Shown piece by piece: positions 55,331-60,804 of a stretch of 64,000 bases of DNA. The DNA is from Iodidimonas sp. SYSU 1G8. Its GTDB lineage: Bacteria > Pseudomonadota > Alphaproteobacteria > SMXS01. The notes under the pieces were generated by a model. That model saw only the letters and a list, made by a program, of their open reading frames with translations, was not told the origin of the DNA and did no database searches. The DNA lies in NCBI RefSeq assembly GCF_039655775.1, contig NZ_JBBYXJ010000002.1:1116001-1180000 (forward strand), in the 5' to 3' direction. The position numbers were made by a program, and so were the translations under genes. Numbering within the stretch: position 1 is the stretch's first letter; each line of letters starts with the position of its first letter.

Positions 55331-55707
55331 GATCCTCCCCTGTTCCCCGCGCTTGGCGGATCGTCCCCGGTACGTCTGCTCCCCAGCGACGTATCGGGTG
55401 GATACCGGTGGTCCCCGGGATCCCGGGCGGTATCGGAGATAACGACAAGCGACCCTGACTTTTTTTACTTATACGCCTCCGCTTCCATCACTATCAAGCA
55501 AACAATTACTTATTTTTGCGCTCCGCTAGGGTTGTGTCGGGAGGTGTTCTATAATAAAGTAATCACTTACATTTAAATCAGTGGGGTGTCAGGCTGACGT
55601 CATCCTCGGCTTTCTTGCGCAGGTTCCGTCGCGGAACTCCGTATCGAGTTTAGCGTCGAACGGGCGTAAGGTCGCCAGGTCAACGACGTGGCCAAGGCGT
55701 GGGGACA
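55331..55707. promoter_or_regulatory. Divergent TonB receptor-TetR control region with repeated TTACTTAT elements
   Basis: AT-rich 377-nt gap. TTACTTAT occurs at 55465-55472 and 55506-55513, a near copy TCACTTAC at 55563-55570, and an inverted copy ATAAAGTAA at 55554-55562. The last two form an inverted pair AAGT-aatc-ACTT (55557-55568), a likely TetR operator. On the minus strand TTGATA (55492-55497), an 18-nt spacer and TATAAG (55468-55473) make the receptor promoter, whose -10 overlaps the first element. A perfect TATAAT (55550-55555) next to the inverted pair may serve the TetR gene, though it lacks a clear -35. Confidence 0.6.
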
Positions 55708-56340
55708 ATGACCGACAGCAAGCAGAATACCGCCGAACCGGGGGGGCGCCGGCGCCGTCTTTCGGCACCCGAACGGCGTCGCCAGATCATCGCGGCCGCC
55801 CAGGAGGTCTTTATTCGATCGAGCCTGAGCGGGGCCCGGACCCGTGAAATCGCGGCGGAAGCCGGAGTCAACGAAGCCACGCTGTTCGCGCATTTCGAGT
55901 CCAAGGAAGCCCTTTTCGAAGCCGCCGTGCTCGAACCCCTGCGCGAGGCCGTGAGCGAGCAGGTCGCGATCGCACGTGCCCGCGCGCCGCAGGACCAGCC
56001 AGCCCGTGACGCCAGCCTGCAGGCCCATGACCGCTTCCTGCGCACCATGCTCAAAAGCTATCCGCTGCTGGTCACGGCTCTGTTCTCGGAGAGGGCCGCC
56101 GGCGAGGAGATGTACCGAAAGCACATCTTCCCCATGATCCGCACCCTTGCCGATATCACGCGCGAGCGAGCCGGCGAGGACCGCCTGAAACATGTGGATG
56201 TGGAGTTGATGACCCTGATGGGTTTCGGCGTGCATCTGATGGTCGTGATGGATCACCATTTTCGCGGCACCGAGATGGACGTGGAAAAGACCGCTGCCGC
56301 GATCACCGCCATGTTCGATCACGGCCTGCGGCCTGATTGA
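55708..56340 (+). CDS. TetR-family transcriptional regulator
   Basis: 210 aa from ATG 55708; an in-frame GTG lies 9 nt earlier. The N-terminal helix-turn-helix is RRQIIAAAQEVFIRSSLSGARTREIAAEAGVNEATLFAHF with the TetR pattern (xxIAxEAGVxxxTLFxHFxSKE). The C-terminal ligand-binding part is all-helical and not assigned. Divergent from the TonB receptor and next to repeated TTACTTAT operators, so it likely represses the receptor and itself in response to a small ligand. Followed by the cupredoxin operon 87 nt later. Confidence 0.92.
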   Translation: MTDSKQNTAEPGGRRRRLSAPERRRQIIAAAQEVFIRSSLSGARTREIAAEAGVNEATLFAHFESKEALFEAAVLEPLREAVSEQVAIARARAPQDQPARDASLQAHDRFLRTMLKSYPLLVTALFSERAAGEEMYRKHIFPMIRTLADITRERAGEDRLKHVDVELMTLMGFGVHLMVVMDHHFRGTEMDVEKTAAAITAMFDHGLRPD

Positions 56341-56371: not shown

Positions 56372-56399
56372 TTGTTTCGGGGCTGGTGTGAACTATGAT
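56372..56399 (+). promoter_or_regulatory. Promoter of the cupredoxin-EAL operon
   Basis: TTGTTT (56372-56377), a 16-nt spacer and TATGAT (56394-56399) form a plausible sigma70 promoter. The ATG at 56395 lies inside the -10, which supports ATG 56428 as the true start of the cupredoxin gene. Confidence 0.5.
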
Positions 56400-56427
56400 C
56401 CGTGATGACGAGAGCTTGAGGGGCCGC

Positions 56428-57075
56428 ATGAAGCGTCTGCGCCGCGCGTTATTGTGTTACCTGTCGGTATGCGGTGCCGTCCTCGGGCAGACCGGGCCGG
56501 CGGCGGCCAACGAGGTGACCGTTGCCGTGGTCGATGATACGGGCGCCGCGGTCCCCGATGCCGTGGTCAGTTTCACATCGCCGGACCCGGCGTTGAATGT
56601 CGCCGCTGAACGCCGTCAGGCAATCATGGTGCAGCAGAACAAGGAGTTCGCGCCTCATATATTGCCGGTGCGTACCGGCGCCACCGTCCGGTTTCCGAAC
56701 CGGGATGAATTCCGGCATTCGGTCTATTCCTTTTCCAAGCCGAAAATATTTCAGTTCAACCTGTATGGCGGCGACGAGGAAAAGAAGGAGGTATTCGACA
56801 AGCCCGGTGTCGTCGCCCTTGGGTGCAATATCCACGACAACATGCTCGCCTACATCTATGTCCTTGATACGGATAATTTTGCTCAGACTGGCGAGGATGG
56901 CGCCGCGGGCTTCGGCACGCTTCGGCCCGGTCGGTATAACGTGGCGGTCTGGCATCCCCGCCAGCGTGCCGAGGTGCCGGCACAGGATGTCGCCCTCGTT
57001 GCCGGCCAGGCGCTGACGGTCTCGTTCCGTCTTCCGCTCAAGCCTCCGGCGCCGCCCCGAGGCGTGCCACAGTGA
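56428..57075 (+). CDS. Exported cupredoxin (methylamine-utilisation/amicyanin-like)
   Basis: 215 aa from ATG 56428 (GAGGGG upstream; the earlier ATG 56395 overlaps the promoter). A signal peptide runs to about residue 28 (GPAAANE). Type-1 copper ligands are H97 (EFRHSVYSFSK), C133, H136 and M139 in LGCNIHDNM, giving C-x2-H-x2-M, the spacing of amicyanin. The N-terminal part (EVTVAVVDDTGAAVPDAVVSF) looks like a carboxypeptidase-regulatory-like beta domain. It is probably a periplasmic copper protein that passes electrons or senses copper or redox state. Its stop overlaps the GTG start of the EAL gene (4 nt). Confidence 0.85.
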   Translation: MKRLRRALLCYLSVCGAVLGQTGPAAANEVTVAVVDDTGAAVPDAVVSFTSPDPALNVAAERRQAIMVQQNKEFAPHILPVRTGATVRFPNRDEFRHSVYSFSKPKIFQFNLYGGDEEKKEVFDKPGVVALGCNIHDNMLAYIYVLDTDNFAQTGEDGAAGFGTLRPGRYNVAVWHPRQRAEVPAQDVALVAGQALTVSFRLPLKPPAPPRGVPQ

Positions 57076-59432
57076 GATTGCCCGCCCTGAACAGGTTTCA
57101 GACCAAGCTTGTCCTGCTATTCCTGTCGCTGTTCATTCTGGTTCAGATCGCCACCTATGTGGCCGTCTATCTGGTGACGGTCCGCAACCTCGACCGCGAG
57201 GCGATCCGGCATCTGTCATATTCCGGCGAGATATTCACCCGCGCCATGCAGGAACGCGCCGACATGCTGGCCGATGGCGCGGCCGTGCTGTCCAACGATT
57301 TCGGCTTCCGCGAAGCGGTCGCCACCGATGACGACCCGACCATCATATCCGCTCTGTCGAACCTGGCCGGGCGGATAGGGGCCGACCGCTCCTTTCTCAT
57401 CGGGCTGGACCGTCTGGTCCGGGCCGATACTGGAACCAGCGCGCCGCTGGTCGGCCAGTCCTTTCCCATGTCCGGACTGCTCGATCACGCCGAACAGCAC
57501 GGGCGCGCCGTCGCCATTCGTGAACTGGACGGCCAGCTTTACGATTTCGTCGTCATGCCGGTTCTGGCGCCCGTCACCATCGCGTGGGTCGGTCTCGGCA
57601 TCCGGCTCGACGATGCCGAGGCCCGGGCCGTCCGCGACCTGATGCCGCAAGGCATGGAGGTGGCGTTTCTCGATGCCTCCGGCAGCGGTCCTCAGGTGCT
57701 GGCGTCCAGCATGCCTCTTTTGGCTCCGGATATTCCCGCGGTGCTTCCCCGCGGCGGCGGTCCGGCGAGCCTCGATCTCGCGGGCGGGGAGTATCTGGCG
57801 CGAGCGATCGATCTGCGCAACGATGATGGGGTGATTGGCGCCACGGCGTTTCTGCAATACTCGATGGATGTGGCTTTTGGTCCTTACCGAGCGCTGATCT
57901 ACGCGTTGCTGGCCTTGCTCGCGGTTGGCATGGCCGTTCTTGCCTGGAGCAGTACGCTGGTCGCCGGCAGTGTGTCGCGCCCGCTGCGGCTGCTCGCCGA
58001 CGCGGCCGGGAAGGCGTCGCGCGGCGACTACCAGCCGGTAGCTCTGATGCCATCGCGTGATGAAATCGGGCAGTTGACCGACAGCTTCAATCGTATGGTG
58101 ACGAGCATCGAGGAACGCGAACGCACCATCACCTACCAGGCCGAACACGACAGCGAAACCGGTCTGCCGAACCGCCGGAAGTTCGAGGCGCTGCTCAACA
58201 TGTTCATCGAGACCTCTCCGCACCAGAGCATCAGCGTGGTTGTGGTGACGGTGGAACGGGTCAACGAGGTCCGGAATACGTTCGGCTTCGCTACATGGGA
58301 AAGGTTGATCGGCCTGATCGGTCCCCGTCTCATCGACAGCGCTTCAGGCGCCGGCATGATCGCGCGGCTGAGCACGGTTTCCTTCATCATCGCCTTTCCG
58401 GGACTGGACGTCGCCGCGGCACGGCGGGCGGCCGAAGACCTTCGCAACGGTTTCGAGCAGCCCTTCACCATTGATGCCTTCACCATCGATTCCAATGCGC
58501 AGATTGGCATCGCCAATTATCCCGACCACGCATCGACGGCTGAGGGATTGGTTCAAAAGGCCAGTATCGCGGTGATGCAGGGACAGACTGGCGGCGCCAC
58601 CGTCAGCGTCTATGACCCCGAACGGGATTCCCACACCGCCGAGCGCCTGTCGCTGATGGGCGATCTCAAGAAGAGCCTCGCCGCCGGCGAGGTGCTGTTC
58701 TACTACCAGCCCAAGATCGACCTGAAGCGGGGCGTCATGAGCCATGTCGAGGCGCTCGTTCGCTGGCGCCACCCCAAGCTCGGCTTCATCCCGCCCGATG
58801 AATTCATTACCCTCGCGGAGCAGACCGGACATATCGGCCATCTCACTGCATGGGCGTTGGAAAGCGCCATCCGCCAGTGCGGCGCCTGGCACGAAGCGGG
58901 CCATGCCATCCGCACCGCCATCAATCTTTCCGCGCGTGACCTCGCGGATCGCACCTTGCCATTCGTCATTGCAAGGCTGCTCAAAAAATACGCCGTCAAT
59001 CCTGGATGGATTGTGCTTGAAGTCACCGAGAGCGCGGTGATGCAGGATCCCGGCCAAGCGATTGACGTGCTCGATGAGCTCAAGCGCATGAAGCTGACGC
59101 TTTCCATCGACGATTACGGCACCGGTTATTCCTCGCTCAGCTATCTGAAGAAACTGCCGATCGACGAGCTCAAGATTGATCGCTCTTTCGTCACCAGTCT
59201 GGCGACCAGCGCGCAGGATCAGATACTGGTCCGTTCCACCATCGACATGGGGCACAGCCTGGGGCTGAAGGTGACCGCGGAGGGCGTCGAGGACGAGGCA
59301 TCGGCCGATCTGCTGCGGGCGTTTGGCTGCGATCTGGCGCAGGGGTATTTTTTCAGCCGGCCCATACCGGTCGAGGAACTGGACCGGTTTATCCAGGTCT
59401 CGCCTTACGGCAAGGTCGCCGCCGTCGAATAG
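57072..59432 (+). CDS. Membrane c-di-GMP phosphodiesterase with degenerate GGDEF and active-type EAL domain
   Basis: 786 aa from GTG 57072. Layout: membrane helix (about 15-35), periplasmic sensor region (about 40-270, CACHE-like), second helix (272-294), HAMP (about 295-350), GGDEF-like domain (355-520) and EAL domain (530-775). The GGDEF signature is replaced (R432-LSTVSF), so no cyclase activity is expected. The EAL signature (E560-A-L), INLSARD, EVTES, DDYGTGYSS and KIDRSF match active phosphodiesterases. It is coupled to the upstream cupredoxin and convergent with the haemoglobin operon. Likely lowers c-di-GMP in response to a periplasmic signal; the link to copper/haem is inference. Confidence 0.93.
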   Translation: MRLPALNRFQTKLVLLFLSLFILVQIATYVAVYLVTVRNLDREAIRHLSYSGEIFTRAMQERADMLADGAAVLSNDFGFREAVATDDDPTIISALSNLAGRIGADRSFLIGLDRLVRADTGTSAPLVGQSFPMSGLLDHAEQHGRAVAIRELDGQLYDFVVMPVLAPVTIAWVGLGIRLDDAEARAVRDLMPQGMEVAFLDASGSGPQVLASSMPLLAPDIPAVLPRGGGPASLDLAGGEYLARAIDLRNDDGVIGATAFLQYSMDVAFGPYRALIYALLALLAVGMAVLAWSSTLVAGSVSRPLRLLADAAGKASRGDYQPVALMPSRDEIGQLTDSFNRMVTSIEERERTITYQAEHDSETGLPNRRKFEALLNMFIETSPHQSISVVVVTVERVNEVRNTFGFATWERLIGLIGPRLIDSASGAGMIARLSTVSFIIAFPGLDVAAARRAAEDLRNGFEQPFTIDAFTIDSNAQIGIANYPDHASTAEGLVQKASIAVMQGQTGGATVSVYDPERDSHTAERLSLMGDLKKSLAAGEVLFYYQPKIDLKRGVMSHVEALVRWRHPKLGFIPPDEFITLAEQTGHIGHLTAWALESAIRQCGAWHEAGHAIRTAINLSARDLADRTLPFVIARLLKKYAVNPGWIVLEVTESAVMQDPGQAIDVLDELKRMKLTLSIDDYGTGYSSLSYLKKLPIDELKIDRSFVTSLATSAQDQILVRSTIDMGHSLGLKVTAEGVEDEASADLLRAFGCDLAQGYFFSRPIPVEELDRFIQVSPYGKVAAVE

Positions 59433-59435
59433 CGC

Positions 59436-59855
59436 CTATTTTTCCACCACGTCACGGTGCATGGGCGCGAGCAGGGCAAGCAGGCGGTTCTGGGTCGCGC
59501 TGGGAATGCCTGCCTCGCGCATGGCCTGCTGCAGCACCTCGACGAGCGCATTGAAGTGCAGGCTGGTCAGCCCCAGTCCCTGGTGGGATTTCTTCATGTC
59601 GACGCCGGTATAGGTGCACGGGCCGCCGCTGAGCGCGCAGAACTGTTCCGAAATCATCTTCTTGAGATAGTCGGGCTTGGAGTTCTTGAAGGTGTGCGCG
59701 ATGCGTGGATCGGTAAAGGACAGGTCGATCGTCCGTCCGACGAACGCAGCGATTCCCGCCTTGCCGCCGAGCTCGTCGTAGAGGCTTCCGGCGAAAGCGG
59801 CTGGCGCGGCAAGGGCAAGCCCGGCGGCCAACAGAAGCATGCGCGCGATCTTCAT
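59436..59855 (-). CDS. Exported group I truncated haemoglobin
   Basis: 139 aa from ATG 59855, one base after the DUF3034 stop. A signal peptide (about 1-23, LAAPAAFAGS) makes it periplasmic, unusual for truncated haemoglobins. The core has SLYDELGGKAGI and YTGVDMKKSHQGLGLTSLHF, the proximal haem His being H91 by comparison with mycobacterial HbN. The position equivalent to Tyr B10 appears to be Ile43 in an ungapped alignment, so the usual NO-dioxygenase pocket is altered. Converges on the EAL gene (gap 3 nt). Confidence 0.88.
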   Translation of the reverse strand: MKIARMLLLAAGLALAAPAAFAGSLYDELGGKAGIAAFVGRTIDLSFTDPRIAHTFKNSKPDYLKKMISEQFCALSGGPCTYTGVDMKKSHQGLGLTSLHFNALVEVLQQAMREAGIPSATQNRLLALLAPMHRDVVEK

Positions 59856-59856
59856 C

Positions 59857-60741
59857 TCAGAACCCCGCCTGTATGGATGCGTAGACGCCCTGCTGCCGCC
59901 CTTGCAGCGCGATCGGTCCGAGATCAACGCCCGCCAGGGTAAGGGAAAGGTGCTTGCTCGGAAACCACGCGACATAGATGGCCTTGGCATCGCCTTCCCG
60001 CGCGAAGGCCAGATTGTCCGGCTTGGTGCGGTAATCGACGCCCGCCACGAGGCGCCGGCTGATCAGATAGACCGCCGAGAACTCCCATTGCAGCCGGTAG
60101 TCGGCCCCGGCGGCGCTGCCGAAGCCGAGCAGGCCGAAATGATTGGCCTTGGTCATGCGGGCCGTCGCGCTCAGCAGCACGCTCTGGCTCAGCAGCAGTT
60201 TGGTCGCGGCCAGATAGAAATCCACGCCGTCATTCCCGCCCGCGCCGACCGCCGCCAGGATCGGCGCCTTGCCGGCACGCTTGTACTGGATACCCGCCGC
60301 GATCTGAGGCAGCCAGCGGTCCTGATCATAGACCGCGTCGCCGATCAGACGCACTTTCGCGCCCACGATATCCTGTGAAAAGGTGAAGCCGTTCCCCAGC
60401 CCGAGCGCGCCGCCGGTCTTTCCGGTATCGAACGATTGCCGCGTATAGGAAATCTCGAGCCTGTCGAACAGGCCGACGGAGACACCGCTGCCGTGGAACG
60501 TGAAGTCATCGAGCACGGCGGAGGTATGATGCGCGTTGATGCCGACGCCCCGGTCGGTGCCATAGCCCGAGATCACGGCCCATGTGCTGAGACCGGCGCC
60601 CGCCGCGCCCTCGACCTGGCTGACGCCGCCGGTGGCCAGGAGCTTGCCCCTGTCGAAGAGCGCCTCGGCCTGGGCGGTCTGCCCCGATGCCAGCACGCTG
60701 AGGATGGCCATCAGGCGCGAGGCCCATTTTCCAGATATCAC
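59857..60741 (-). CDS. DUF3034 family outer-membrane-type protein
   Basis: 294 aa from GTG 60741 with GGGGGAG as ribosome site. A signal peptide (about 1-25, ending TAQAEAL) precedes amphipathic beta-strand-like alternation throughout (many Gly and aromatic residues) and a C-terminal aromatic end (YASIQAGF), as in outer-membrane barrels. KLLATGGVSQVEGAAGAGLSTWA at the N-terminus is typical of DUF3034. Function unknown. It is the first gene of the DUF3034-truncated haemoglobin operon, below a perfect inverted repeat (60785-60804). Confidence 0.82.
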   Translation of the reverse strand: MISGKWASRLMAILSVLASGQTAQAEALFDRGKLLATGGVSQVEGAAGAGLSTWAVISGYGTDRGVGINAHHTSAVLDDFTFHGSGVSVGLFDRLEISYTRQSFDTGKTGGALGLGNGFTFSQDIVGAKVRLIGDAVYDQDRWLPQIAAGIQYKRAGKAPILAAVGAGGNDGVDFYLAATKLLLSQSVLLSATARMTKANHFGLLGFGSAAGADYRLQWEFSAVYLISRRLVAGVDYRTKPDNLAFAREGDAKAIYVAWFPSKHLSLTLAGVDLGPIALQGRQQGVYASIQAGF

Positions 60742-60784
60742 TTCGTGGCTCCCCCAAGCCTTATCAGCCGTACAGGCGGATTAA

Positions 60785-60804
60785 TCTTGCATATTCCTGC
60801 AAGA
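60785..60804. promoter_or_regulatory. Perfect inverted repeat upstream of the DUF3034-haemoglobin operon
   Basis: TCTTGCA (60785-60791), TATTCC and TGCAAGA (60798-60804) form a perfect 7-6-7 dyad between the DUF3034 start (60741) and the end of the enoyl-CoA hydratase gene (60821). It could be a repressor/activator operator. It does not clearly match a known consensus (FNR/DNR/NsrR) from memory. Confidence 0.6.

Follow-up and report, generated by a model that had tools for sequence, protein, structure and literature searches.

The window, i.e. the whole stretch of 64,000 nucleotides of Iodidimonas sp. SYSU 1G8 DNA analyzed here, contains two operons which converge end to end (Table 1). The ORF coordinates agree with the preliminary description of this DNA both in the 3-nt gap between the operons and in the 4-nt overlap (57072-57075) of the cupredoxin gene (CUP) with the gene of the EAL protein. 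On the opposite strand, 1 nt separates the stop codon of the DUF3034 gene from the ATG of the globin gene (GLB). A terminator-like site was not found in the 3-nt junction. For CUP, the signal peptide is cleaner when translation begins at a second in-frame ATG (56428), which is a likelier start than 56395. Upstream of the cupredoxin ORF, at a distance of 54 nt, the same strand carries a gene for a TetR-family regulator (55699-56340, + strand), which adjoins a gene for a TonB-dependent receptor (PF00593, PF07715; 52886-55330, - strand). The TetR gene was considered as a member of the module and rejected, as no relative of it was present at any other locus examined.

Table 1. Features of the four-gene locus in the window
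Feature	Position	Strand	Basis or remark
CUP ORF, exported type-1 cupredoxin (predicted)	56395..57075	+	likely start 56428
Copper-ligand His codon (H70, mature protein)	56716..56718	+	invariant 38/38
C-N-I-H-D-N-M, Cys/His/Met copper ligands	56824..56844	+	invariant 38/38
dCache_3-HAMP-GGDEF(degenerate)-EAL protein	57072..59432	+	ORF, Pfam
Periplasmic dCache_3 sensor, conserved DFGFR motif; proposed CUP docking surface	57216..57806	+	Pfam, alignment
HAMP linker	57957..58115	+	Pfam
GGDEF-like domain, degenerate motif (STVSF)	58140..58586	+	Pfam, alignment
EAL domain with the full catalytic set E,N,E,D,D,K,E,Q	58662..59363	+	invariant in 35 aligned sequences
Gap separating convergent operons, 3 nt	59433..59435		ORF coordinates
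GLB, exported group-N truncated hemoglobin (predicted)	59436..59855	-	Pfam, alignment
DUF3034, predicted 12-strand outer-membrane beta-barrel	59857..60741	-	Pfam, structure prediction

None of the Pfam cupredoxin models reaches its cut-off with the CUP protein (Cupredoxin_1: 13.4 bits, cut-off 27), and its assignment is therefore based on the ligand set and the predicted fold. The ligands H70, C106, H109 and M112 are invariant in all 38 aligned relatives from alpha-, beta- and gammaproteobacteria, and the ligand loop is of the amicyanin type (C-x2-H-x2-M). The AF2 model shows a Greek-key cupredoxin fold (pLDDT 92.6), for which Foldseek retrieves Thermus NirK, amicyanin and pseudoazurin with E values of 8e-7 to 1e-5. 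As judged from alignment and model, CUP is a type-1 cupredoxin and is predicted to bind copper. The amicyanin-type cupredoxin of the preliminary description is thus borne out by loop and fold, with the correction that it lies below the threshold of every Pfam model. When the N- and C-terminal parts of CUP are joined and the middle is removed, the resulting sequence matches CarboxypepD_reg over positions 2-81 of 82 with 38.4 bits (cut-off 32.3), whereas intact CUP gives a partial match with 31.2 bits; the cupredoxin is thus inserted in a split CarboxypepD_reg domain. CUP shares the cupredoxin fold with amicyanin and pseudoazurin, but differs from both by this insertion and by adjoining signaling genes. 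The label given to it by annotators, 'methylamine utilization protein', suggested a role in methylamine metabolism. This was dismissed since no methylamine dehydrogenase gene was recognized by eye beside CUP in the neighborhoods read.

In the EAL protein, a Pfam scan identified EAL (PF00563, E=2e-73), HAMP (3e-12) and dCache_3 (1e-9, residues 49-245). The catalytic residues E560, N618, E650, D680, D681, K701, E737 and Q757 are present in 35/35 sequences. Going by these residues, the protein is a phosphodiesterase with an intact site, predicted to hydrolyze c-di-GMP. Thus, the membrane EAL phosphodiesterase seen in the preliminary description stands, and the dCache_3 sensor and a degenerate GGDEF-like domain have to be added to it; the motif of the latter, STVSF in the window protein, reads GGDEF or otherwise in relatives. 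For the sensor part, a sequence search of the PDB returned no relatives. The GGDEF-EAL architecture is shared with DosP, DibA and LapD, which differ from the window protein with its dCache_3 domain in the input domain. The NCBIfam scores of 344 bits for DibA, 311 for DosP and 122 for LapD are far from the respective equivalog cut-offs of 980, 857 and 1020.

GLB matches Bac_globin (PF01152, E=2e-13), its proximal histidine H69 is present in 58/58 sequences, and its nearest solved relatives are group-1 truncated hemoglobins (TrHbs). Tyr B10 and Gln E11 of HbN are both replaced by Ile in the window protein. In the GLB alignment, E11 is hydrophobic in all 58 sequences and B10 is V, L, I, M or A in 53 of them and never Tyr. 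Hydrophobic residues at B10 and E11 characterize the TrHbN-2 subgroup of group-N truncated hemoglobins, which includes SbHbN (PMC11904497), and by these residues GLB is of the TrHbN-2 type. Fold, proximal His, hydrophobic B10/E11 and a Cys at E16, invariant among the GLB sequences, are common to GLB and SbHbN (PMC11904497). GLB differs from SbHbN in having a signal peptide or lipobox, a second Cys seven residues further on (56/58) and a strict linkage to DUF3034. A location outside the cytoplasm is supported by the lipobox-like sequences in several relatives (e.g. L088, L111 and L077). The exported truncated hemoglobin of the preliminary description can accordingly be specified, by its Bac_globin match and the conserved proximal His, as a group-N protein with a hydrophobic distal pocket and predicted heme ligand.

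The DUF3034 protein matches its family over the full length (PF11231, 1-255/255, 313 bits with a cut-off of 25, E=2e-93). It carries a signal peptide and ends in SIQAGF with a terminal Phe. Its AF2 model (pLDDT 86) consists of 12 long strands and is placed by Foldseek near OmpG, FapF and porins, with TM about 0.5 and an identity of about 10%. DUF3034 is thus predicted to form an outer-membrane beta-barrel. A viral origin was considered, and a DUF3034 scan of viral contigs came back empty. The titles and abstracts of the open-access literature contain no paper on the function of DUF3034, which may have been described earlier beyond open access. All four products appear to face the envelope, as had been claimed before.

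Co-occurrence in Pseudomonadota genomes

The association of the four genes was assessed in 299 Pseudomonadota genomes sampled evenly across the phylum; DUF3034 is present in 25. According to a profile of the module globin, the GLB subfamily is present in 25/25 of these genomes and in 1/274 others: the DUF3034 genomes score at least 140 bits, the single exception (G154) 138, and the next genome 97. CUP, at a threshold of at least 100 bits, was found in 24/25 DUF3034 genomes and in 11/274 others. Fisher tests give 1e-35 for GLB and 6e-26 for CUP, with genomes treated as unrelated and phylogeny ignored. In the 24 DUF3034 genomes other than that of the window, GLB is always adjacent to DUF3034, CUP is nearby in 19 and a dCache_3-EAL gene in 17. 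All four parts are encoded in 23/25 DUF3034 genomes, in six of them scattered over the same genome (G126, G261, G213, G225, G246 and G142). The two genomes lacking the full set are G078, with DUF3034 and GLB only, and G019, where CUP lies beside genes for an ECF sigma factor and RskA. The preliminary description had treated the four genes as a unit and stated that DUF3034, a truncated hemoglobin and a 'methylamine utilization protein' occur together elsewhere. Both claims hold, the EAL gene included, and the neighborhood search of DUF3034 homologues which it proposed had the opposite outcome to the one it named as speaking against it.

The order of the genes varies. In Caballeronia they form a single operon, DUF3034-GLB-CUP-EAL, annotated as 'DUF3034 family protein', 'group 1 truncated hemoglobin', 'methylamine utilization protein' and 'EAL domain-containing protein'. 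Herbaspirillum has CUP-EAL-DUF3034-GLB; the arrangement is divergent in many Caulobacterales, and convergent in the window and the congener G304. Since the four genes have been reassembled in differing orders, their linkage argues for a functional relationship and against the mere common ancestry of one inherited block. Chance clustering is excluded because the arrangement is conserved over alpha-, beta- and gammaproteobacteria. DUF3034 is present in 1/6 other genomes of the genus and in 0/3 others of the family, a patchy distribution which points to frequent gain or loss. Copies are also found on plasmid-classed replicons.

The four genes are thus a conserved and apparently undescribed cassette. 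Two further arrangements were seen at DUF3034 loci. The 2.3-Mb genome G078 retains an intact DUF3034-GLB pair, shows no cupredoxin or dCache_3 match, and contains a second, decayed copy of DUF3034 and globin with in-frame stops (contig C3, 72197-73313; L026-L028, L115). At Methyloversatilis-type loci (e.g. L077, 8873-10855), DUF3034-GLB lies beside a PQQ-dehydrogenase-type beta-propeller protein, with CUP and EAL not nearby.

CUP, its sensor partner and their exchangeable neighbors

Ninety-four loci with CUP at 100 bits or more were collected. As 56 of them were fetched via DUF3034, the locus counts are biased toward the four-gene form, while the genome sample and the CUP-fetched loci are unbiased. 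A dCache_3-HAMP protein is encoded within 400 bp of CUP in 77/94 loci and anywhere in the fetched locus in 81/94; 70 of the 77 neighboring genes lie on the strand of CUP, mostly with a spacing of -4 to +60. The remaining 13 loci lack a dCache_3-HAMP sensor in the fetched stretch, and it is likewise missing from some DUF3034 loci (L080, L082, L084 and L086). In three genomes where CUP is apart from the sensor (G158, G142 and G015), a dCache_3-HAMP protein is encoded elsewhere in the genome; dCache_3 is rare, with one to three per genome.

The output domain of the 77 CUP-adjacent sensors is EAL in 63 cases and in a further, frameshifted one (L197). Six loci have a class III nucleotide cyclase (L146, L147, L188, L196, L200 and L202), six a Ser/Thr kinase (L154, L204, L206, L207, L209 and L210; in L208 the kinase lies farther from CUP) and one a histidine kinase (L195). 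These assignments were made by Pfam for L146, L147 and L154, and by similarity to the domains of these proteins for the others. L075 encodes a dCache_3-HAMP-GGDEF protein besides the EAL one. The DFGFR motif was tried as a marker of every CUP sensor and discarded, being absent from the STK-type CUP sensors. The central position given to c-di-GMP in the preliminary description therefore has to be revised: with EAL as the commonest output it is one case of a wider scheme, in which the pair of cupredoxin and sensor is elsewhere joined to cyclases, to Ser/Thr kinases and, once, to a histidine kinase.

The outer parts vary as well. DUF3034 is replaced by a barrel-like family of ~410 aa in ten loci (L150-L153, L159, L162, L195, L200, L201 and L203), and a weakly porin-like protein of ~290 aa is the outer partner in five (L147, L148, L189, L193 and L198). 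CUP is also found without DUF3034 and GLB, and is then usually still located beside a dCache_3-HAMP protein. Furthermore, the evolutionary distances of CUP correlate better with the sensor domain (rho 0.67) than with the EAL domain encoded in the same gene (0.45; partial correlation 0.56), and DUF3034 correlates with GLB (rho 0.57), although such correlations can also reflect common species history or rates. Judging from gene content, the constant core is CUP plus the dCache_3-HAMP sensor, around which output, barrel and globin are exchangeable or, for the latter two, absent, and globin and DUF3034 are a second, separable pair. At one locus (L204, 3994-8420), DUF3034, CUP and a dCache_3-HAMP-Ser/Thr kinase are neighbors; no globin was detected over the 11 kb.

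A proposed signaling route across the envelope

We propose that the cassette is a modular trans-envelope signaling system in which the copper or redox state of CUP is the input of the Cache sensor, a reading to which we assign a probability of roughly 0.6. A small ligand or redox-active compound would enter the periplasm via the barrel. The globin would bind O2, NO or peroxide, or pass an electron, and exchange its redox or ligand state with the copper site. In one copper state the cupredoxin would dock on the dCache_3 domain, and HAMP would relay the resulting change to the EAL domain and alter c-di-GMP hydrolysis; most simply, the presence of the signal would lower c-di-GMP, and such a decrease is the commonest predicted output of the cassette. 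In other species the same input would drive class III nucleotide cyclases, Ser/Thr kinases or a histidine kinase. Docking on dCache_3 is the best supported of these putative steps because of the adjacency of the genes, the exchange of outputs and the distance correlation; entry through the barrel and exchange between globin and cupredoxin we infer solely from compartment and chemistry. Against the proposal stand the 13 CUP loci and the DUF3034 loci that lack the sensor, the ECF sigma/anti-sigma pair that neighbors CUP in L105, and the missing DFGFR motif of the STK-type sensors. More tentatively, at somewhat less than even odds, the cassette may exemplify a general class of transmembrane signaling in bacteria. 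The receptors of this class, Cache-HAMP proteins, would take their input from the redox or copper state of a periplasmic type-1 cupredoxin dedicated to them, instead of binding a small molecule themselves, and evolution would have swapped the inner output (phosphodiesterase, diguanylate cyclase, class III cyclase, Ser/Thr kinase or histidine kinase) and the barrel and globin around the pair. In titles and abstracts of the open-access literature, no cupredoxin is tied to c-di-GMP, to HAMP or adenylate cyclase, or to a truncated hemoglobin; an earlier description may exist beyond open access.

The strict invariance of the copper site, the sole chemistry of this kind common to all full-length variants, and the frequency of CUP-sensor loci without globin would also suit a copper-status sensor, in which the signal is apo versus copper-loaded CUP, the barrel admits copper or a copper chelate and the globin is ancillary. 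We regard this as unlikely, since no copper-homeostasis gene was recognized among the neighbors read by eye and the type-1 electron-transfer geometry usually goes along with tight holding of copper. Less probable still is a redox enzyme pair of globin and cupredoxin, the latter as electron donor, which detoxifies NO or peroxide and whose phosphodiesterase gene is merely co-regulated. Type-1 copper and heme share one compartment and peroxide reactivity is reported for another globin of this subgroup (PMC11904497), but GLB has neither the TyrB10 nor the GlnE11 of HbN-type globins, and the cupredoxin recurs with dCache_3 sensors of four output kinds in globin-free loci. A locus for biofilm or matrix export, with DUF3034 as secretion barrel and the phosphodiesterase tuning matrix production, is very improbable: FapF is among the best Foldseek matches of DUF3034 together with OmpG, but these matches are generic, none of the recurrent neighbors was recognized as a gene for exported matrix or amyloid, and barrels of other families replace DUF3034.

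The proposed signaling cassette resembles known trans-envelope systems. In YfiBNR/TpbB, an outer-membrane component, a periplasmic protein and an inner-membrane HAMP c-di-GMP enzyme act in series. A similar series is proposed for the cassette. YfiBNR differs in having a YfiR unrelated in type to cupredoxins, a cyclase (YfiN) in place of an EAL enzyme, and no globin; we know of no exchange of the output class in YfiBNR. A Pfam scan of seven products gave no match to YfiR, nor to any Yfi family among the four. LuxP-LuxQ and NspS-MbaA have a membrane sensor of the Cache/PAS type whose actual input is a soluble protein of the periplasm. These soluble partners are solute-binding proteins, whereas that proposed for the cassette is a type-1 copper protein. 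The cassette would thus work like YfiBNR, LuxPQ and NspS-MbaA and be a member of none of them, because the partner families differ and the scores for LapD, DosP and DibA are far from equivalog level.

The cassette provides a functional frame for two dead ends of annotation, the 'methylamine utilization protein', whose name is a misnomer, and DUF3034, and suggests a role for a subfamily of exported globins. It also points to a candidate route by which c-di-GMP and, where domains have been exchanged, kinases and further second messengers could respond to periplasmic copper and heme redox chemistry. Because outputs are exchanged, the contact of cupredoxin and dCache at the heart of this route can be put to a direct test with purified domains.

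Variant loci around CUP

Several loci depart from the patterns described above. Eleven distant CUP relatives (L211-L221; 77-98 bits, mostly 240-280 aa) have no dCache_3 sensor nearby. CUP of L161 (3239-5791) has a DUF4394 protein and a small GGDEF protein as neighbors. Genes for an ECF sigma factor and an RskA anti-sigma factor take the place of the dCache_3 sensor in two cases, overlapping CUP in L105 (3452-5541) and near GLB in L065 (4914-6286). As a regular output they were rejected, being confined to these two loci, with weak and more distant matches in Herbaspirillum. In favor of the proposed signaling role, the neighbor of a short cupredoxin in L032, L034 and L035 is a PAS histidine kinase, which has another type of sensor. 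Finally, in L112 (3826-5955) such a PAS histidine kinase and a cupredoxin share a single frame, in which a hydrophobic, signal-like segment lies internally, and this kinase-fused cupredoxin passes the Pfam Copper-bind model.
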